27,439 nt of DNA from a virus: IMG/VR virus record IMGVR_UViG_3300023284_000316, positions 1 to 27,439 of that record. One strand, given 5' to 3'. A program made the position numbers and the translations under genes. This document shows positions 3,491 to 24,227 of the stretch, piece by piece. Under the pieces are notes generated by a model. That model made no database searches. It saw only the letters and a list, made by a program, of their open reading frames with translations, and had not been told where the DNA came from. Position 1 is the first letter of the stretch, and the number at the start of each line of letters is the position of its first letter.

Positions 3491-3758
3491 GCCAAGAGAG
3501 GAGGAATACAGCCCTCCGCAACCAAACGAATTACTGGAGGCTCTGATTTCATGCAGTACAGCCTACGAGCTGTGCAAAGGATATATCTCCACTGGCAAGC
3601 TAGACGGAGACAAGTTCATATACTTGTGTCGCGCTCTGATAGACACCCGAGCCTCATTAGAATGTAATCCCAGCCCTAGCAAAGACCCATTCGAGACACG
3701 GATCGAGGAGTGCGAAGTACTCCAGAGCCGAAAGGAGAACCCACATGCCAAGAGTTAG
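3477..3758 (+). CDS. hypothetical acidic protein
   Basis: The start at 3477 is preferred to the in-frame start at 3438 because GGAGGAGGAAGAGGG sits immediately upstream. The 93-residue product begins MPKDKPREEEYSPPQ, then has a helical core (ELLEALISCSTAYELCKGYI, FIYLCRALIDTRASLEC) with four cysteines not in a metal-like spacing. It overlaps the gene before by 14 bases and the one after by 14 bases. No family recognised. Confidence 0.6.
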   Translation: MPKDKPREEEYSPPQPNELLEALISCSTAYELCKGYISTGKLDGDKFIYLCRALIDTRASLECNPSPSKDPFETRIEECEVLQSRKENPHAKS

Positions 3759-3999
3759 TTTCTCAAGCGAAGACTCAGCCCCCGAGCAATGGGAGCTAGA
3801 TCGTGATGAGGCCGAAGGACTGCTCAGTCTTTTGGAGGACTGCTCCATCGAGCTGAGTAAAGAAGAAGAGTTCGTAATCGACATGATGGATAGGTTCAAA
3901 CAGCGCGGTCGCAATATGCGGGTGACCGAGCCCCAACTAAGGTGGCTTAGAGATATTGAGGACCGGGGTGGATCGAGTCCATACCGGGATAAGAGGTAA
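3745..3999 (+). CDS. hypothetical protein with MPRVSF start and VTEPQLRWLRDI motif
   Basis: 84 residues. After MPRVSF comes an acidic helical region, and the C-terminus has VTEPQLRWLRDIEDR. This resembles the 'vTeKQ..wL..I..r' helix often found at the end of small phage proteins (general knowledge). Its translation start, AAAGGAGA plus 6 nt plus ATGCCAAGAGTYAGTTT, is shared almost exactly with the unrelated gene at 12566. Coupled to the preceding gene by overlap. Function unknown. Confidence 0.65.
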   Translation: MPRVSFSSEDSAPEQWELDRDEAEGLLSLLEDCSIELSKEEEFVIDMMDRFKQRGRNMRVTEPQLRWLRDIEDRGGSSPYRDKR

Positions 4000-5302: not shown

Positions 5303-5470
5303 ATGGGCATGATTGGATTACCAGAGATGGCCATCATCTTCGGGATTGTCATCATTCTCTTCGGAGTCAAGCGGCTCCCGGAGATCGGGAAGAACCTGGG
5401 TGAAGGTATCAAGAACTTCAAGTGGTCGATGAAGCAGATCACCACTGATGAGAATGGAGATGATCGATGA
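5303..5470 (+). CDS. tatA: TatA-like twin-arginine translocase subunit
   Basis: A 55-residue protein with the TatA/E layout. GLPE (5-8) precedes a single membrane helix (about 8-21) ending in FG (20-21). Then comes the amphipathic helix VKRLPEIGKNLGEGIKNF (22-39) and a short acidic tail (TTDENGDDR). Bacterial TatA oligomerises at the inner membrane with TatBC and opens the path for folded proteins with a twin-arginine signal. The ATG at 5303 is chosen over GTG 5282 because AAGGAGGG lies correctly before it. The tail is shorter than in most bacterial TatA. No tatC is visible, so host TatC would be needed. A Tat-signal protein lies downstream at 6212. Confidence 0.92.
   Translation: MGMIGLPEMAIIFGIVIILFGVKRLPEIGKNLGEGIKNFKWSMKQITTDENGDDR
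5444..5470 (+). repeat. TatA-tail repeat, copy 1
   Basis: The 27 bases coding TDENGDDR and the stop are repeated at 5735-5761 with 24 of 27 positions identical. In both places the stop codon overlaps the start of the next gene (ATGA here, GTGA in copy 2). Confidence 0.9.
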
Positions 5471-5724
5471 AGACTGGGTTCGCTATGAAGTATGACTTCT
5501 CTAAGCTCGAAGAACGGATCATAGCCGACTATTTAAGAGGCTGTCTGGATTCTGGGAGAGTTAATATTCCAGAGGAAGTCTTACCAGAGGAAATCTTAAA
5601 TGAGTGGATGAAGTCGTTCCCAACAGTTTTAGAGTGGATGAAGTCGAATGAACGCACAGTTACAGGCCGCACACCGTCCACTCCAAAGTTCCAGCAGGGG
5701 GTAGGTCATGATGGACCGTCGTAG
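5467..5724 (+). CDS. hypothetical acidic protein inserted between tatA and remnant
   Basis: 85 residues, coupled to tatA by ATGA. The sequence is a soluble helical protein (FSKLEERIIADYLRGCL, EEVLPEEILNEWMKSF) with a repeated WMKS element near 47 and 57. It ends in DGPS because its last codons read through the repeated 'Tat-signal head' sequence in another frame. The HD gene ends in the same DGPS for the same reason. No family recognised. It occupies the first cargo position of the repeated cassette. Confidence 0.6.
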   Translation: MKTGFAMKYDFSKLEERIIADYLRGCLDSGRVNIPEEVLPEEILNEWMKSFPTVLEWMKSNERTVTGRTPSTPKFQQGVGHDGPS

Positions 5725-5732
5725 ATTCCTTA
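5709..5732 (+). repeat. Tat-signal-head repeat, copy 1
   Basis: 24 bases coding the start MDRRRFL are repeated at 6210-6233, with 23 of 24 identical, where they code MDRRKFL of the Tat-signal protein. Confidence 0.9.
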
Positions 5733-5761
5733 TCACTGATGAGAACGGGGATGATCGGTGA
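5711..5761 (+). pseudogene. 16-codon hybrid remnant: Tat-signal head joined to TatA tail
   Basis: An ORF reading MDRRRFLITDENGDDR. Its first seven codons match the start of the Tat-signal protein (MDRRKFL at 6212) and its last nine match the end of TatA (ITTDENGDDR). The two pieces therefore come from genes on either side. It has no room for a hydrophobic core, so it cannot work as a signal peptide. It looks like a recombination scar, although it could still be translated. Confidence 0.75.
5735..5761 (+). repeat. TatA-tail repeat, copy 2
   Basis: Second copy of the sequence at 5444-5470, with three substitutions. It now ends the hybrid remnant and overlaps the GTG of the HD gene. Confidence 0.9.
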
Positions 5762-6225
5762 CCTATCCACTTGATCTTAGCAACATAAATGTTAAGACTG
5801 CCATACGTCTCGCTTTTACGAAGCACATCAATCAGGATGACAAGGATGGGTTGCCGTACGTTCTCCATTTGCAGGCTGTTGCCCAGTCATTCAAGTCCCC
5901 ATTAATGCAGACGGCTGGACTACTGCATGACATAGTGGAGGATACTGATGTCACTGTAGAACATCTGACTAAGCTGTTTCCAGGTCCAATTCCGATACTT
6001 GTAGACGCTGTATCAAGACGGCCCGATGAGGTATACGCGGACTACATCACTAGAGTCATAGCCGGTGGAGAAGCGGCTGTCGAATTGAAGCTGGCTGATG
6101 TACGGCACAATCTCAGAGCTGACCGTATCCATGCGATTACGCCGAGTCTGATCGACAGACTGGAAAAGACCATGGACAGGCTATTGGATGCACTAACAGA
6201 TAGAGGTACTGATGGACCGTCGTAA
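5758..6225 (+). CDS. HD-domain phosphohydrolase, MESH1/SpoT-hydrolase-like
   Basis: 155 residues starting at GTG (overlap GTGA with the remnant's stop). The HD-domain metal residues are visible: H37 in YVLH, HD at 57-58 in LLHDIVEDT, E61-D62, and D114 with N118 in KLADVRHNL. 'A..KH.nQ.DK.G.PY..H', 'LLHD.vEDT..T...L' and 'E.Y..YI.R' are the signature of small SpoT-like (p)ppGpp or NADPH hydrolases and relatives. A role in removing a host alarmone is attractive but inferred. It ends in DGPS at the second copy of the head repeat and overlaps the Tat-signal gene by 14 bases. Confidence 0.85.
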   Translation: MTYPLDLSNINVKTAIRLAFTKHINQDDKDGLPYVLHLQAVAQSFKSPLMQTAGLLHDIVEDTDVTVEHLTKLFPGPIPILVDAVSRRPDEVYADYITRVIAGGEAAVELKLADVRHNLRADRIHAITPSLIDRLEKTMDRLLDALTDRGTDGPS

Positions 6226-6233
6226 ATTCCTTA
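6210..6233 (+). repeat. Tat-signal-head repeat, copy 2
   Basis: The version of the repeat at 5709-5732 that begins the intact Tat-signal protein. Confidence 0.9.
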
Positions 6234-6868
6234 CCAATCTAGGCATCGGTAGTGCTGCCGTCACGACCGCTGCACTTGTAGATCCTACATCTCTATTCGA
6301 TATCGAGAAGGAGCTGTGGATACCGGGAGAGCGGAAGATATTCCTCCCGAACGAGATCGCTACGGGCACGTACTACAACGTGGACTTCCTCATACGTCGT
6401 GAGCACATCATGACGCCAGAGTTCAAGGAATCACTCAAAACTGGTAGACCGTTCATTCTGGACCAATCAGGGGATCGGCTCTACATCCCACCGGACAACT
6501 ACCAGCCACGGAACCAGCCGTGGGGTATGCAACTTGACAGGCCCAATCGGGACGGGAAAGGCTGGTTCAACCGTGGCACAGAAGGCTGGCAGAGAATACA
6601 CAAACGGATTCATATCCCACGTACTGCGGGAGTACAAGGTTTGACATCAATCCCGATGTCAAAGATCTTGGATGACACTCCACACCTCCTGAGACACAAC
6701 ATCAGGATCGCGGAGATCAGCATCCAAGAAGGTGGCCCCTCGCACGTCCTACTCGAACGCAAGGGTGCCATCATGCCACGGACCTTTGGAGGAGCACGAG
6801 TCGCTTCCTACGTAGGATTGAACGGCATCGTGCCATCCGATGGAGACGTGAAAGTCAATTTCCAATAA
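6212..6868 (+). CDS. phage protein with twin-arginine signal peptide
   Basis: 218 residues. The N-terminus MDRRKFLTNLGIG has the R-R-x-F-L core of a Tat signal at residues 3-7, followed by a weakly hydrophobic Ala/Gly/Thr core to about residue 22. After it comes LWIPGERKIFLP, a segment I recall following Tat-like N-termini in phage proteins from environmental genomes. The body is beta-rich and basic, contains QPWGMQLDRPNRDGKGWF, and has no enzyme motif I can name. It is probably exported or associated with virions. With TatA encoded about 0.75 kb upstream, it is the obvious client (inference). Confidence 0.8.
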   Translation: MDRRKFLTNLGIGSAAVTTAALVDPTSLFDIEKELWIPGERKIFLPNEIATGTYYNVDFLIRREHIMTPEFKESLKTGRPFILDQSGDRLYIPPDNYQPRNQPWGMQLDRPNRDGKGWFNRGTEGWQRIHKRIHIPRTAGVQGLTSIPMSKILDDTPHLLRHNIRIAEISIQEGGPSHVLLERKGAIMPRTFGGARVASYVGLNGIVPSDGDVKVNFQ

Positions 6869-12530: not shown

Positions 12531-12565
12531 GTCTGAGCCTTTTAACTCATCAAAGGAGATCGAAA

Positions 12566-13471
12566 ATGCCAAGAGTCAGTTTTGCGGTGAAGGATCAATC
12601 TTCATCGCTAGGTTTTGAAGAAGGGTACGGGCGCGTGGTCGAGGCCAGCGTCAAAATACACCAGTACACTAAGAGGGATGGGACCGAGCTGGACCCATTT
12701 GTGTGTATTCAGTTTGGCCTGCTCAGACTGGATGCCGAGCTAGACCCCATTGCGGGTGAGGATGAAATCATCTATGAGCAGTTCAGGATCGGTGGGGATT
12801 TCAGCAAGTGTCGGCCCGGTAACATGGACGGTGCGGATGATGACGCGCCCGATGATCTGGGAGAGGACCAGGACGAGGACGGCAACTGGCCCGAGGGTAA
12901 CTGCCTGTATGCGGATGAGGGCTACAAACCATGGCCGAAGTCTGCTACGTCAGCACTGATGAAGAGTCTTGAGTTGTGCAACGTCAAGGCCAGTATCAAT
13001 GCTCAAGGGTACATGCCCAACTACGTCGGGATGGAGTGCAAGTGGAAGTCCGAACCGAGTGGCAACAAGGATGATCAGGGCAGGGATTACATGCACCTTG
13101 TCGCTGAAGACGTGCCGACCAAACCGAAAGCCGGTGGTAAGGCGAAGCCTGCTGCCAAGAAGAAGACTTCGAAGAAAGCCTCCTCAAAGAAGAAGGACAC
13201 CGATGAGGATGGTGATGACGATGCACTGACCACAGCCAGATCCGAGATGGCTGAGTACGCCAATGCTCACAGAGGTGAGGAAGTTCCACGTAAGAAACTA
13301 CAGACGGCAGTGATGATGAGCTTGACCAAGCAGAAGGTGAACGTGAAGTTTCAGAAAGCCGTCGTGGATATCATCAAGGACGTTGAGCAGCTTGCAGCGA
13401 TGGGTGCCGATTTCAACTTCGCTGTGGACACGGACGATCAGACCATCACGTTCGCAGAGGAAGAGTCTTAG
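12566..13471 (+). CDS. candidate ssDNA-binding or recombination accessory protein
   Basis: 301 residues in three parts. The first is a beta-rich N-terminal domain (1-185). It has a strongly acidic insert around 86-110 and the phage-typical segment KPWPKSATSALMKSLELCN. Then comes a Lys/Ala/Ser-rich linker (about 188-212), and a C-terminal domain ends acidic (ITFAEEES). An acidic C-terminal tip after a flexible linker is usual for SSB-type proteins. The family it resembles sits beside Sak4-like ATPases and nucleases, as here. This remains an inference; no OB-fold motif can be proven by eye. RBS AAAGGAGA; start module shared with 3745. Confidence 0.6.
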   Translation: MPRVSFAVKDQSSSLGFEEGYGRVVEASVKIHQYTKRDGTELDPFVCIQFGLLRLDAELDPIAGEDEIIYEQFRIGGDFSKCRPGNMDGADDDAPDDLGEDQDEDGNWPEGNCLYADEGYKPWPKSATSALMKSLELCNVKASINAQGYMPNYVGMECKWKSEPSGNKDDQGRDYMHLVAEDVPTKPKAGGKAKPAAKKKTSKKASSKKKDTDEDGDDDALTTARSEMAEYANAHRGEEVPRKKLQTAVMMSLTKQKVNVKFQKAVVDIIKDVEQLAAMGADFNFAVDTDDQTITFAEEES

Positions 13472-18979: not shown

Positions 18980-19275
18980 GCAAAGAGATCCGTAACAGAA
19001 TCCTCACGCCGGGTGGTAATGATATCCGGCAACTCGAAGACACCAGTCATGGATGGGGCATCTTTCTCTCCAGGGATGGTGTTCGGTTCTACTCAGTGTT
19101 TAAGCCTACAGACATGATGGAGTTCGCTGTTGTAATACGGGATATCAAACCGGACAACAAACGGTACGCATTCATACTGAGCATTCAGTTGCCCGCGTAC
19201 AACTCCATCCTTGATTTGAAGATTACCGTACCCGAGCCGACCGAAGAACAACGGAAGAAGGGATTACAGAATTGA
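18976..19275 (+). CDS. hypothetical protein between ERCC4 nuclease and UDG
   Basis: 99 residues. ATG 18976 follows AAGGAG and overlaps the nuclease stop (ATGA). The sequence is beta-rich: NRILTPGGNDIRQLED, then HGWGIFLSRDGVRFYSVFKP, MEFAVVIRDIKP and AFILSIQLPAYNSILDLKI. No catalytic or metal motif is visible. Its position between two DNA-repair genes suggests, without proof, an accessory role. The stop overlaps the next start as TTGA. Confidence 0.6.
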   Translation: MSKEIRNRILTPGGNDIRQLEDTSHGWGIFLSRDGVRFYSVFKPTDMMEFAVVIRDIKPDNKRYAFILSIQLPAYNSILDLKITVPEPTEEQRKKGLQN

Positions 19276-20696
19276 ACCGTTGTGACACATGCCCTGGCAA
19301 CACCCGCTTCATACCCGGTGACGGACCCGACGACGCCGACGTGCTATGTGTAGGTGAAGCTCCTGGTAAGGAAGAAGATAAGACCGGCATCCCATTCATC
19401 GGAAAGGCTGGTCGCGAGTTCAACGAGAATTATCTGCCCCTAGCGGGATTGAAACGACCTAATGTGTACGTCACCAATGTACGCAAGTGCCGCCCCGAAC
19501 AAAACCGCACACCTACAGACAAGGAAGCACGATCATGTGCGACCGCATACCTCTCAGATGAACTCGAACGGGTTCAACCCACCTACCTGATACTCATGGG
19601 GGCTACCGCCTGTAAGCTGCTTCCAGACCCACTTGACCTGGAAACTCAGCACGGTATCCCCCTCCCATCCTCGGTGTTCGATTGGACCGGATGGGTCATC
19701 CCGATGTACCACCCGGCGGCAGGGTTGCATACCACGGCCATGATGCAGCCGATCCTTGAGGACTGGGCGAACCTGAGACAGTGGTTTGAGACCGGGGTCT
19801 GGCAGTGGGCCATGGACGAGTACGAGACCCACGACTACCGGCATTGCAAGTCGATGAATCAGGTGGATGAATACTTTGAGCAGTATTCTCCAATGGAGAT
19901 CATCGGTGGGGATACGGAGAGCCACGGTATAGAGGACTGGTCCATTCAGACATCCACGGCACCTGGCACCGGCATCATGATTCTTGAAAAGGACAAGGCC
20001 ACGATGGACCGGCTGGGTCTGTGGCTATACAAACACATCGTACTCTGGGGCAGCGATCCCCTCGGCTCCGAGCTGGCGCTACATAATGCACCGGTAGATT
20101 TGCGTCAGTTCGAGCGCATCATCGGGTGCCCGTTCCCTTATCGAGACACGATGCAGGAGGCATACCACCTCGGGAACCTGCCTCAAGGACTCAAGCCGCT
20201 AGCGTACAGGCTTCTGGGCGTCCGCATGACGAGCTGGAAGGAGACCGTACAAGGTGCCAGCCGTGACGCACTCTGCGCGTGGATTGTCCAGGCCAGTATG
20301 GAGGCCCAGGAGAAGCTCACGGTGATCAAGAAGAGGTTCCACAAAACAACGGGTAAACCACTTCAAGATGGGGTCACTAAGTCACTGGAAGAAAAGAAGT
20401 TAGATCACCTACTGACCTATGCAATCAAGAATGATGACTATGATGTCTGGTCACGGATTGATGAGTACCGGGATGAGTGGAACTTGTTGTTTGATAAGGA
20501 GATAGGGGAGATTCCGGTGCTTGGGATAGGGAACATGACCCTTGAAAACGCGAAAAACTATGCCGTTCTGGATGCTGATGTCGAGTTACGGGTGGCTTTG
20601 GCTCTGAAGACGCAGCGTAGGTACACCAGCGCGAATATTTGGGGTGTTTCGGAGGACGATATGGACCCCCTTTACACCCCTGAGATGGCCGGGTGA
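19272..20696 (+). CDS. uracil-DNA glycosylase fused to DnaQ-like 3'-5' exonuclease
   Basis: 474 residues, TTG start. Residues 1-175 are a family 4-type UDG with GEAPGKEEDKTGIPFIGKAG at 29-48, VTNVRKCRPEQNRTP and MYHPAA. Cysteines 4, 7, 73 and 89 are placed as in the 4Fe-4S enzymes. Residues 205-450 are a proofreading-type exonuclease: DTE at 214-216, HNAPVDLRQF near 271-280 and YAVLDADVEL near 430-440. It ends where the polymerase domain would normally begin; that domain is a separate gene at 22788. UDG removes uracil, and the exonuclease would serve the phage polymerase. A fused UDG-exonuclease is unusual. Confidence 0.9.
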   Translation: MNRCDTCPGNTRFIPGDGPDDADVLCVGEAPGKEEDKTGIPFIGKAGREFNENYLPLAGLKRPNVYVTNVRKCRPEQNRTPTDKEARSCATAYLSDELERVQPTYLILMGATACKLLPDPLDLETQHGIPLPSSVFDWTGWVIPMYHPAAGLHTTAMMQPILEDWANLRQWFETGVWQWAMDEYETHDYRHCKSMNQVDEYFEQYSPMEIIGGDTESHGIEDWSIQTSTAPGTGIMILEKDKATMDRLGLWLYKHIVLWGSDPLGSELALHNAPVDLRQFERIIGCPFPYRDTMQEAYHLGNLPQGLKPLAYRLLGVRMTSWKETVQGASRDALCAWIVQASMEAQEKLTVIKKRFHKTTGKPLQDGVTKSLEEKKLDHLLTYAIKNDDYDVWSRIDEYRDEWNLLFDKEIGEIPVLGIGNMTLENAKNYAVLDADVELRVALALKTQRRYTSANIWGVSEDDMDPLYTPEMAG

Positions 20697-21208
20697 GACC
20701 TCAAGCGGCCTCAATCCGGCGGTGGAGGGTGTATTTCAAACTCTTGGAGTCCACGGGAGGCTCCCTGGAGCTGTTCGACTTCGAGTTCTTGGCCCGAGAT
20801 GAGGGGGTCACGATGAGGACTATCAAGAGGGACTTGGAGATGTGGACCCGGATTACCGAGTTCAATGTAGAGGAGAGTCGGGTCTTGACTGGGGATAGTG
20901 GACAGGCACGAGCGACGTGGAGGGTGGTGATGCCGCCCAAGGCAGTCCTGAAGTGGTGGAGGGGGAAGATGGAAGTCCTACGTATGATCGAGGTGTCGGC
21001 TAAGTACTGCTCGAAGTGTGGTCGTACTCGGAGGGCCGACGAGTTCGGTAGGGATAGGTCGAAGAGAGATGGCCTACAGCATTACTGCGCGGAGTGTCTG
21101 AATAAGATCGCCAAGAAGGTTTACCAGAAGGACCTGAAGAAGTCACGACGGCAGAGGTTGGAGACTCAGAAGCGATACTTGAAGAGGCTCAAGAGGACAG
21201 AAAAATGA
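20693..21208 (+). CDS. winged-helix-like protein with HNH-type zinc motif
   Basis: 171 residues, GTG start overlapping the UDG stop. The N-terminal 90 residues (FKLLESTGGSLELFDFEFLA, TMRTIKRDLEMW) look like a winged helix. Residues 102-145 contain YCSKCGRTRRADEFGRD, then DGLQHYCAECL, the zinc motif C-x2-C ... C-x2-C that starts many HNH-type phage proteins. The tail is very basic. No complete H-N-H catalytic set is visible, so it may only bind DNA. Confidence 0.65.
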   Translation: MRPQAASIRRWRVYFKLLESTGGSLELFDFEFLARDEGVTMRTIKRDLEMWTRITEFNVEESRVLTGDSGQARATWRVVMPPKAVLKWWRGKMEVLRMIEVSAKYCSKCGRTRRADEFGRDRSKRDGLQHYCAECLNKIAKKVYQKDLKKSRRQRLETQKRYLKRLKRTEK

Positions 21209-21489
21209 GAGTGGTTGACTGGGATTACTACTCCGGGCACTGGAGCCTGACCATCGGGTTCACCAATCGCACGTTCATCATGTTCAGGTTAGCAGCTGGG
21301 CTGATGTTCTTCAGAATATGTGGACGTGGGCTGTGGTTTGCCAGCTACAGGTCACACCAGCCCCTGTTTAGTGAGAGGTATGGATACCGAGTCGTGCTGT
21401 TCCGATGGACGAATTGGTGGAGGGTGTGCTGGCTTGAAAACTTGAAGCCTATCAAAACCAAACCCCAATTACTGAGGCTGGTGAAATAA
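21205..21489 (+). CDS. conserved phage protein of the G.GL.F ... FSERYGYR type
   Basis: 94 residues, ATGA-coupled. FRICGRGLWFASYRSHQPLF followed by SERYGYRVVLF matches a small phage family written 'f.i.GrGl...r...plFSeRyG'. The protein is rich in Trp and Arg. The N-terminal hydrophobic segment (LAAGLMFFRI) is too short and interrupted for a clear membrane helix. Function unknown. It belongs to the string of small genes separating exonuclease and polymerase. Confidence 0.75.
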   Translation: MRVVDWDYYSGHWSLTIGFTNRTFIMFRLAAGLMFFRICGRGLWFASYRSHQPLFSERYGYRVVLFRWTNWWRVCWLENLKPIKTKPQLLRLVK

Positions 21490-21644
21490 TGGAACAAGTC
21501 AAACAAGAGTCTAACGTCTTGGACCCGGAGGAAGGCTACCCGTACAAGATAATGATCTGTGATTTTTGGGTGCTATGTACTGACCCGGAGGCGGTCATCC
21601 AACTAGCCGCAGCCTACGGCACGCCGAGAGGGAGTAAGAAATGA
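21489..21644 (+). CDS. 51-residue acidic hypothetical protein
   Basis: A short ORF starting on the last base of the previous stop and overlapping the next ATG (ATGA). The sequence MEQVKQESNVLDPEEGYPYK continues as a strand containing IMICDFWVLCTD and a short helix. No RBS better than CTGGTG is seen. Its fit in an otherwise gapless operon, using both neighbours' boundaries, is the main support. Function unknown. Confidence 0.5.
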   Translation: MEQVKQESNVLDPEEGYPYKIMICDFWVLCTDPEAVIQLAAAYGTPRGSKK

Positions 21645-21838
21645 TCCTCCTCCCCATAGGCGACATGATCCTCGTGGAAGGAAGGCCATACCTCTACGCC
21701 GTACTAACAGAGTGGGATGGAGATGGGCAGATATCTGCTTATCCCTTGACCGTGAGGAGAACCCCATTCTGGGAGTCACTACTGATCGAGTATCCCGATG
21801 GGCTAGTGGAGTTCACTACTGGGATATATCAATCATGA
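21641..21838 (+). CDS. hypothetical beta-rich protein
   Basis: 65 residues, ATGA overlap with the gene before. Strands alternate through the chain (MILLPIGDMILVEGRPYLYA, QISAYPLTVRR, LIEYPDGLVEFTTGIY), suggesting a small barrel. RBS AGAGGGAG. No family recognised. It overlaps the next gene's ATG by four bases. Confidence 0.55.
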   Translation: MILLPIGDMILVEGRPYLYAVLTEWDGDGQISAYPLTVRRTPFWESLLIEYPDGLVEFTTGIYQS

Positions 21839-22020
21839 AGATACACAGACACGCACCATGGACCCTCATCGTAGTCCGCAAACGTCGCTGGCTCTATACG
21901 TACTTCAACCGTAGGTTCTCCAAACACGAGCACCGATGGCCAGTCGTCATACTACCAGAGGAGACCTATGGGAAGGTGCTGGAGTATGCAGCTCGACATG
22001 GGAGGTTTCCATTAGGATGA
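21835..22020 (+). CDS. small basic hypothetical protein
   Basis: 61 residues starting at ATG 21835; the longer frame back to 21712 lies inside the previous gene. It is very basic and aromatic: HRHAPWTLIVVRKRRWLYTY, then FNRRFSKHEHRWPVVILPEE and a short C-terminal helix. Histidines and arginines suggest nucleic-acid binding, but nothing specific can be named. ATGA-coupled to both sides. Confidence 0.55.
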   Translation: MKIHRHAPWTLIVVRKRRWLYTYFNRRFSKHEHRWPVVILPEETYGKVLEYAARHGRFPLG

Positions 22021-22229
22021 GTCTCTTCGGTAAGTGTAAGGACGGAGCGGACTGCATTGTGATCTTTGTTTGTCAAAACGGTGTCAAATCTACACGGGGT
22101 TACTGCGAGAGGTGTGAGACCTTCTATACAATACAGTCCACCTGCCTCTACCCATTTGAGGACATCAGACCGTACACACCTTCCAGCTTGGAGAAGGAAG
22201 ACATACTAAATTCCATGAGGCGAACATGA
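22017..22229 (+). CDS. small cysteine-rich protein beginning MSLFG
   Basis: 70 residues. It contains CKDGADC, FVCQNG, CERC and a lone Cys, giving six cysteines in the first half. YCERCETFYT is a typical half of a zinc ribbon. Its first codons (ATGAGTCTCTTCGGT) match those of the polymerase N-terminal remnant at 22226 at 14 of 15 bases. GGGAGG lies upstream. Function unknown. Confidence 0.6.
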   Translation: MSLFGKCKDGADCIVIFVCQNGVKSTRGYCERCETFYTIQSTCLYPFEDIRPYTPSSLEKEDILNSMRRT

Positions 22230-22279
22230 GCCTCTTCGGTGACATAAACCTTCCAGGGGCACCGGACCTGTACCTATGA
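22226..22279 (+). pseudogene. remnant of a polymerase N-terminus
   Basis: A 17-codon ORF, MSLFGDINLPGAPDLYL, matches the start of the intact polymerase at 22788 (ALFGGIKLPGAPALEN) at 10 of 14 positions, with many synonymous differences. It ends where the HNH gene begins (ATGA overlap at 22276). It looks like the 5' end of an older or foreign polymerase gene cut off by, or carried in with, the HNH element. Confidence 0.75.
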
Positions 22280-22788
22280 AGAAACGTCGGCTGATTACAA
22301 TGACGGAGAAGGACAAAGATCGATTCTGGTCCAAGGTGGATAAGAGTGGTGGGCCTGATTCCTGCTGGCCATGGATGGCAGCTCGACTGAAACCACTTGG
22401 ATACGGGATTTTCATGTTGTCAGGAAAAACAGTCCGGGCCAACAGAGTCTCCCTAACATTAGAAATCGGCTCTATTCCAGATGAATTGAATGCCTGCCAC
22501 CACTGTGACAACCCACCCTGCTGCAATCAAGCCCATCTCTTCGCTGGGACTATGAAACAAAACCTACAAGATGCTTCATCCAAAGGCCGCTGTGCCGTAC
22601 AACGCTATCCGGGACTAACTCAGGGGGAAAATAATGGTTCCGCGAAGCTAAATGATCTACAGGTGCTTGAGATATTCCATTCCTCTAAGCAGTCGGTGGT
22701 GTTGGCCAAACAGTACGGTGTGGACCGGCAGAGCATAGAACGTATATGGGGTGGACGAACTTGGTCCCATCTGACAGGGGCACGATAG
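22276..22788 (+). CDS. HNH homing endonuclease
   Basis: 170 residues. The N-terminal catalytic part has RFWSKVDKSGGPDSCWPWMA, GYGIF, ANRVSLTLEIG, ACHHCDNPPCCNQAHLFAGT and QNLQDASSKGR. This is the HNH pattern of phage homing endonucleases (C-W-x-W, H-x-C-D-x-P-x-C, N-x2-H-L, G-T, N-x2-D). The C-terminal part (GENNGSAKLNDLQVLEIF, then LAKQYGVDRQSIERIWGGRTW) is the usual DNA-recognition helix-turn-helix. It sits between a polymerase N-terminal remnant and the intact polymerase gene, the classic niche of such mobile genes. Its TAG shares a base with the polymerase GTG. Confidence 0.92.
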   Translation: MKKRRLITMTEKDKDRFWSKVDKSGGPDSCWPWMAARLKPLGYGIFMLSGKTVRANRVSLTLEIGSIPDELNACHHCDNPPCCNQAHLFAGTMKQNLQDASSKGRCAVQRYPGLTQGENNGSAKLNDLQVLEIFHSSKQSVVLAKQYGVDRQSIERIWGGRTWSHLTGAR

Positions 22789-24227
22789 TGGCACTCTTTG
22801 GCGGGATTAAATTACCGGGGGCACCAGCTCTTGAGAACATCAGGCGTCTCGATCTAATGCCTATGGCCATGTCCGCTGAGATGACGACCTATGGCATGGC
22901 TATAGACAAGGAGTGGTTCGCCACGGTCACCGAGCAGCTCGATGAAGAGATGGAGGAGCTGAAGGCAGAGATCTGTCTGGAGATACCCTACTCCAAGTTG
23001 GACGAGTTCATTGCCCGATCCAAATTGGATGAGACTTCCCACCTCCCCATGAATGTAGAGTCTACAGATCAGATCCGGTATCTGATGTTCGACGTGCTGG
23101 GTATTGGTCGCGGTCGCAACCTGAAGCTGACTAAGAAAGGTGACAAGATCTCTACGGGGAAGAAGCAGCTTGAGAAGCTGAAGAGAGACCACCCGATGGT
23201 CCAGAAAGTTCTGGACTATAGAGAGCGGTCCAAACTAAAGGGGACTTATGGTGAGAAGCTCCCCCTCATTGCCAAGCACCACCCAAAGGATAATTGCTGG
23301 TGTGGCATCCCTCACTTCGATGAGACATGGAGGATACACAGTGAACTACTTTGGACTCGGACTTCTACTGGGCGCGGTGCTTCAAAGAACCCTAACCTCC
23401 AGAACATCCCAGCGAGAACGGAACTTGGAAGACAAATACGTCGCGGTTTCATTGCAAGCCCAGGGACGGAGATCGTCGGGTGTGATTACAGTCAGATCGA
23501 AATGCGGATGGGTGGACACTATAGTCAAGACGATAACCTTCTACGAATCTTCAGACTGGGGCTTGATCCTCACACCGATACCGCGAAGAGAGCCTTCCGA
23601 GTAGAGAAGCCGGATAAACTCACGCAGCGCGACCCCTGTAAGAACGTGAACTTCGGTGTGTTCTACGGGCTAGCTGCTGAGGGTCTGTTCGACCTGATGA
23701 TGGTGACCTACGCCACGGCAGGGATGGATATTCCTGATTGGTTGACGCTGGAGTGGTGCGACCAGTTTATTAAGGACTGGTTCAAGCTGTATCCCGGAGT
23801 GATGGAGTATCTGGAGGAGCAGTATTACCGCGCCAGGAGGTACGGGGTGGTGTGGACACTGTTCGGTAGGATCAGACGGGTGCCTGAAGTGAGGAGTGTT
23901 CATAGTTACGTACAGAGCCAGGGGTTGAGGCAGGCCGGGAACATGCCGATACAGGGGACGTGCGCGGATATCATGAGGCTGGCTATGGCCATGGTGCATG
24001 TGGAAGTGGTGCTGCCGTTAAGGAAGGAAGGGATATTTGTCAGGCCATTGATGACGATTCACGATGAGTTGCTGCTGGAAGTGGAGGCGAGGTACGGGGA
24101 TATCGTGCTGGCTATGGTGGAGGGCGTGATGAGTAAGGTGATGTTTGATAAGGATGAAGAGGTGGATAGGTGCGCGGTTCCTATAGTGGCTTCAGGCCAT
24201 GTTATGAATCGCTGGACGAAAGAATAA
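22788..24227 (+). CDS. family A DNA polymerase, polymerase domain only
   Basis: 479 residues from GTG 22788; an in-frame ATG at 22746 lies inside the HNH gene and is unlikely. Motif A is VGCDYSQIEMRM (Asp at about 233). Motif B is QRDPCKNVNFGVFYG (R281, K285, F289, Y293). Motif C is TIHDELLLEV (HDE at 425-427). Phe at 289 matches E. coli Pol I rather than T7. QGTCADIMRLAM near 390 is also conserved. CWCGIPHFDETW near 171 is a small insertion with a C-x-C pair. It has no 3'-5' or 5'-3' exonuclease; proofreading would come from the gene at 19272. It is the replicative polymerase of the phage. Confidence 0.92.
   Translation: MALFGGIKLPGAPALENIRRLDLMPMAMSAEMTTYGMAIDKEWFATVTEQLDEEMEELKAEICLEIPYSKLDEFIARSKLDETSHLPMNVESTDQIRYLMFDVLGIGRGRNLKLTKKGDKISTGKKQLEKLKRDHPMVQKVLDYRERSKLKGTYGEKLPLIAKHHPKDNCWCGIPHFDETWRIHSELLWTRTSTGRGASKNPNLQNIPARTELGRQIRRGFIASPGTEIVGCDYSQIEMRMGGHYSQDDNLLRIFRLGLDPHTDTAKRAFRVEKPDKLTQRDPCKNVNFGVFYGLAAEGLFDLMMVTYATAGMDIPDWLTLEWCDQFIKDWFKLYPGVMEYLEEQYYRARRYGVVWTLFGRIRRVPEVRSVHSYVQSQGLRQAGNMPIQGTCADIMRLAMAMVHVEVVLPLRKEGIFVRPLMTIHDELLLEVEARYGDIVLAMVEGVMSKVMFDKDEEVDRCAVPIVASGHVMNRWTKE

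Follow-up and report, generated by a model that had tools for sequence, protein, structure and literature searches.

An element that inserts into coding sequence ordinarily depends on splicing. The free-standing homing endonucleases of T4-like phages, such as SegE/uvsW, SegF/56, SegG/32 and MobE, have in common a promoter-less nuclease gene adjoining the gene that is cleaved, start/stop overlaps and co-conversion of the flanks (PMC2988022). That review was found to describe neither a stranded gene start nor replacement of a 5′ end. For T4 intron homing it documents one-sided illegitimate break repair (PMC2988022); as it presents the 1999 work, one side is repaired through homology and the other junction falls at or near the cut, which is the mechanism proposed below, although the T4 case was a laboratory intron system whereas the present cases are natural genomes with intronless nucleases. 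In fungal mitochondria, endonuclease ORFs accompanied by a foreign gene end are described at Allomyces atp6 and at Glomus atp6, atp9, cox2 and nad3 (PMC3630166, citing Paquin et al. 1994). In the account given there, the endonuclease comes with a replacement gene piece, the native piece is stranded and the two copies differ at silent sites, as here. These elements replace the 3′ end (PMC3630166), whereas at the present locus the 5′ end is replaced, with other nucleases and in other genomes, and the locus therefore falls outside the fungal gene-end-replacing class. Because the start codon is part of the replaced 5′ end, the old start also passes to the nuclease. The ShiLan element, an out-of-frame HNH gene within a phage methylase, likewise invades a phage gene without splicing, but its host gene reads through the insert, whereas the polymerase studied here restarts after it (PMC11855218). 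A literature search, with few subscription journals within reach, found no phage report of stranded 5′ gene ends, and the layout described here is, as far as could be searched, a recurrent and previously unremarked variant of intronless homing.

The window, meaning the whole stretch of DNA that was analysed, is the 27,439-nt virus record IMGVR_UViG_3300023284_000316. The features of the locus are as follows.

19272–20696, plus strand: gene for UDG and a 3′–5′ exonuclease, about 2.1 kb upstream of the polymerase
22017–22229, plus strand: 70-aa ORF that also begins MSLFG, directly before the mini-ORF
22226–22279, plus strand: mini-ORF of 17 codons (MSLFGDINLPGAPDLYL, then stop), with ATG at 22226 and TGA at 22277–22279
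22276–22788, plus strand: free-standing HNH endonuclease of 170 aa, with an HNH_3 domain and a C-terminal part
22786–22790, plus strand: TAGTG, one-base overlap of the HNH stop and the polymerase GTG
22788–22832, plus strand: second copy of the polymerase start (VALFGGIKLPGAPAL), with silent divergence from the remnant dominating
22788–24227, plus strand: intact family A DNA polymerase domain gene of 479 aa (PF00476 DNA_pol_A, E 4e-87)

The polymerase-homologous part of the mini-ORF spans 15 codons (22226–22270); its ATG overlaps the TGA of the preceding gene, and its own TGA overlaps the HNH ATG. The intact polymerase, read from the GTG at 22788, begins VALFGGIKLPGAPALENIRRLDLMPM. An ungapped alignment of the first 15 codons of the two starts gave 28 of 45 identical nucleotides (62%) and 10 of 14 identical residues after the start. 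The match scored 51, whereas the best of 100 shuffled versions of the 700 nt upstream scored 33. Silent differences were present at 7 of the 10 identical codons (pS 0.81, pN 0.22), so the two starts are diverged alleles and not a recent duplication. A sequence-only reading of the window had already described the upstream fragment as a polymerase start alike in protein and different at silent sites, and the alignment bears this out. The same reading pointed to the base shared by the HNH stop (TAG, 22786–22788) and the polymerase GTG at 22788, and called the precision of the border striking; the overlap is real, but it is partly ordinary, one-base overlaps being frequent among phage genes. A Shine–Dalgarno-like AGGGG lies at 22776–22780, within the 3′ end of the HNH gene.

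With both start copies flanking the HNH gene, an insertion with target duplication was considered, in which the element copied 45 nt of its target on landing and the copies then drifted. The copies are only 62% identical in DNA yet conserved in protein, with mainly silent changes, whereas a dead copy would drift otherwise; on these grounds a transposon with target-site duplication was rejected, and the duplication reading in general appears highly improbable. The 70-aa ORF directly upstream adds a further likeness between consecutive genes: 22017–22031 (ATGAGTCTCTTCGGT) matches the remnant start at 22226–22240 (ATGAGCCTCTTCGGT) at 14 of 15 nt, and this ORF is possibly an earlier capture, or third copy, of the polymerase start.

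The assignment of the nuclease rests on profile matches. Pfam HNH_3 matched with an E value of 6e-5, which is 1.8 bits below the Pfam cut-off, and the PHROG 1872 endonuclease matched with an E value of 1e-26, which places the protein among nucleases with a homing-type domain; a search of solved structures with the HNH profile gave no match. The gene lies outside any intron or intein, since no Rfam intron family was found at the gathering threshold and the HNH stop precedes the polymerase start. A group I intron-encoded HNH of the I-HmuI type was thus rejected, the polymerase start being duplicated and not exon-split, and an intein was rejected because stops separate remnant, HNH and polymerase.

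A single-protein search for close relatives of the polymerase found none, the best polymerase having about 49% identity, so recipient and donor are not separable by direct comparison at the window locus. Known phages contained distant polymerases only, all below 60% identity to that of the window, and a search of viral contigs for the start motif LFG-I-LPG returned chance matches only. Closer kin were reached through the clade-specific polymerase motif ISTGKKQL. In relatives that lack the HNH gene, the polymerase starts belong to the same family as the mini-ORF (MLFGGIELPGHPDL, MSLYAGITLPGRP; L106, L109 and L097), which identifies the mini-ORF as a genuine polymerase start. These genomes, free of an HNH gene at the polymerase start, provide the empty site expected of a free-standing homing endonuclease. 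Their polymerases have a single start: MLFGGIELPGHPDLANVRALDLLPI in L106 and L109, MSLYAGITLPGRPAPANVQKLDLLPL in L097 and L099, and MYIPSRVRHPSFANTQALDRLPM in L098 and others. The sequence-only reading had named relatives without the HNH gene but with both N-terminal copies as the observation that would contradict it; no second polymerase start was present upstream in any of the 11 HNH-less loci, which represent three distinct lineages. The first bases of the window remnant (ACATGAGCCTCT) are identical to those of the functional polymerase start of HNH-less L097, where the polymerase ATG overlaps the stop of the preceding gene, as does the remnant ATG. The remnant therefore sits in a native start context; the GTG at 22788 is probably the newcomer, and the mini-ORF probably the 5′ end, now stranded, of the polymerase gene that was there originally.

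In the 24 relatives examined, a single ORF encodes UDG, exonuclease and polymerase; in the window the UDG–exonuclease gene stands apart from the polymerase gene. The two are also separate in phages of the L015/L023 type, where other genes occupy about 2 kb between them (window span 19272–24227). Directly after the exonuclease gene of the window, the ORF at 20693–21208 has an endonuclease VII-like zinc region (phrog_1035) and may represent a further old nuclease insertion in the exonuclease–polymerase interval. The polymerases of two relatives contain long in-frame intein-like insertions (L097:3759–5993, minus strand; L109:5217–7544), in which an intein domain was not confirmed by Pfam. The L097 insertion harbours, nested in a different reading frame, an HNH_3 gene (E 7e-14), comparable to the hidden HNH of ShiLan (PMC11855218); the L109 insertion has a nested ORF of similar kind that no Pfam family matches.

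A second polymerase case was found in L104/L111 (contig IMGVR_UViG_3300009551_000002). Here an ORF beginning MMAPSRPAIYMPGQPDLL continues in frame into an HNH gene, followed by an intact polymerase beginning MAVPKRPQITMPGEPCLENV. The HNH protein is 44% identical to that of the window, and the remnant shares 10 of 17 residues with the intact start on the same contig. Each of the two remnants is closer to the polymerase start of its own phage than to the remnant of the other, so the two insertions look independent. Both remnants diverge from the polymerase right after the Pro-Asp-Leu codons. A GIY-YIG/NUMOD3 homing endonuclease is present at L111:3940–4500, in the exonuclease–polymerase interval.

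For a survey beyond the polymerase, HNH relatives were gathered from viral contigs and bacterial genomes, giving 177 non-redundant loci. The peptide after each start codon preceding the HNH domain was compared with the starts of the next gene; this start-anchored test was adopted because the unfiltered comparison was swamped by arginine-rich out-of-frame matches. At a score of at least 35, 7 of the 177 loci were positive against 0.03 expected from shuffled pairing, and a gapped version with a score of at least 45 gave 7 against 0.0 expected. In total, eight of the 177 loci, window included, carry a copy of the start of the next gene just before the HNH gene; a recognisable remnant is present in only about 4% of HNH loci. 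The genes concerned are as follows.

Window; L114/L111: polymerase (PolA)
L154: RusA
L173: NinB
L250: DUF5131
L260: glycosyltransferase
L174; L284: genes without a Pfam family

The layout is therefore not specific to the polymerase and recurs at other genes in other phages. L257 is a doubtful case, and L135, L197, L158, L281 and similar loci were rejected as of low complexity or not start-anchored. No start remnant was found at T4 segE/uvsW, tested as the classical case. Among non-HNH genes in the same loci, 3 of 356 reached the same score (Fisher p 0.018), and none of these three was immediately adjacent on both sides, a criterion chosen post hoc. At five loci (L111, L173, L174, L250 and L260), the HNH gene is in frame with the start codon of the remnant, so the HNH is able to use the start of the gene that it interrupted.

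The direction of the event could be followed in Vibrio phages, where empty-site relatives exist for phage 1.191.O, which has an HNH gene between ssb and helicase. In the empty-site phages, 59 nt separate ssb from a helicase that begins ATGTTCAAACTCCGCTACTACCAACAGGACGCGGTTGAT (MFKLRYYQQDAVD). Phage 1.191.O retains this 59-nt leader together with the initial 35 nt of the resident helicase, up to GACGCGG, these 35 coding nucleotides being identical to those of the empty-site phages; the HNH gene follows, and then a foreign helicase start, MKLTARPYQEDAIEAV. Over its first 1.2 kb this helicase has no relative above 77% identity, and from 1,200 nt it is 88–100% identical to relatives. The upstream piece therefore belongs to the recipient, and the HNH gene and the next 1.2 kb are foreign, which also speaks against target duplication. 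Phage 1.225.O has the same layout with a different nuclease, HNH-AP2, a foreign helicase tract of about 240 nt and a remnant that extends to about nt 40, its start codon decayed to ACG. In 1.246.O, a NUMOD3-HNH gene is followed by the same foreign helicase start as in 1.225.O, and no start remnant was found; because these two phages share one helicase 5′ allele, two events and not three are counted at this locus. A foreign helicase start accompanies all three nuclease insertions at this one slot, whereas a remnant is absent, and the helicase start is the resident one, at the three empty sites and with the four Vibrio cassettes that gave no nuclease match. Flanking donor sequence was thus co-converted in the Vibrio phages. 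Wherever it could be tested, the upstream start is resident and the downstream start foreign; the right edge is a homologous crossover, and the left edge falls within coding sequence and shows no homology. For the Vibrio phages, the view of the stranded start as a recipient remnant carries greater confidence than the mechanism proposed for the window.

The decayed start codon of 1.225.O also bears on the possibility that the mini-ORF is a functional leader peptide, its polymerase likeness retained by selection for translation of HNH or polymerase. The ATGA overlaps couple upstream gene, mini-ORF and HNH, and the in-frame remnant starts at five loci fit such a role; the mini-ORF may serve as a leader for HNH translation. 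With ACG in place of the start codon in 1.225.O, and with a leader function accounting for retention but not for origin, this explanation is considered very unlikely. Still less credible is a chimera of two strains produced in metagenome assembly. The window belongs to a virus record, and most of the relatives compared are metagenomic contigs, but several unrelated contigs and sequenced isolates share the layout, with clean ORFs throughout.

For the window, one-sided intronless homing at the 5′ end of the polymerase gene is the probable explanation, the remnant being the recipient's and the HNH gene and replacement start the donor's. A free-standing HNH endonuclease of a related phage would have cut the recipient polymerase gene just after codon 15. 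The downstream broken end would then have been repaired from the donor by homologous recombination within the polymerase, copying in the HNH gene of the donor along with the polymerase start that comes directly after, while the upstream end, for which the donor offered no matching sequence, would have been fused by illegitimate joining to the 5′ side of HNH. The product would have 15 recipient codons stranded, the HNH gene on the old translation start and a full polymerase with a donor start codon; since that codon restores the full polymerase, the insertion would be close to harmless to it. We infer that this HNH did the cutting, where the cut fell and that a related phage was the donor. HNH would be translated by coupling to the mini-ORF through the ATGA overlap, and the polymerase from AGGGG...GTG, where the HNH gene ends. 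The sequence-only reading had offered two options, an older polymerase allele cut by the HNH gene or an HNH gene arriving with flanking polymerase sequence; both find support as halves of one event, directly at two Vibrio helicase loci and by extension in the window, where the upstream fragment would be the recipient's own start and the HNH gene would have come together with the new one.

Nuclease-independent illegitimate recombination was weighed against this, whereby phages with different accessory genes in one slot have their cassettes joined head to tail, the stranded start being a scar and HNH one possible cassette. A non-nuclease HD-domain gene in the same window (5758–6225) is also flanked by a similar start remnant: 5703–5735 copies 6204–6236, the start of the gene at 6212 (MDRRRFLI / MDRRKFLTNLG; 33 nt, 88%), and 5734–5761 copies 5443–5470, the tail TDENGDDR of the preceding gene (28 nt, 89%). 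To judge from these repeats, the scar at 5703–5761 resembles a head-to-tail junction of two cassette variants formed without a nuclease. Two nearby ATG 15-mer pairs occur in the window and none in shuffles. Start remnants can therefore arise without a nuclease, which keeps nuclease-free recombination alive for the window. The HD scar, however, includes a piece of the end of the upstream gene, and the HNH junction has no such second scar; start remnants are rarer around non-HNH genes; and non-nuclease cassettes in the Vibrio slot are accompanied by neither remnant nor altered helicase start, which favours a role for the nuclease. Nuclease-free recombination is accordingly judged unlikely. Elsewhere in the window, the ribosome site and first codons are common to a pair of distant genes (3731–3761 and 12552–12582; MPRVSF, 84% over 31 nt).

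One-sided homing as proposed here means that an invaded gene gains a new start instead of needing splicing. A further and more tentative suggestion, possible but doubtful at present, is that start capture is a selected strategy, in which some phage HNH endonucleases target the first codons of conserved genes, use the captured start codon and ribosome site, travel with a nuclease-resistant replacement start and so gain entry to essential genes with no need of splicing, mirroring the fungal mitochondrial elements at the 5′ end. A stranded start records the identity of the recipient, the position of the joint and the divergence of the donor in one sequence, so that large-scale reading of genomes could recover homing events and cut sites. 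For annotators, odd short ORFs before HNH genes become interpretable. For the phages themselves, nucleases swap 5′ parts of essential genes between lineages, the helicase tracts being 0.24 and 1.2 kb.
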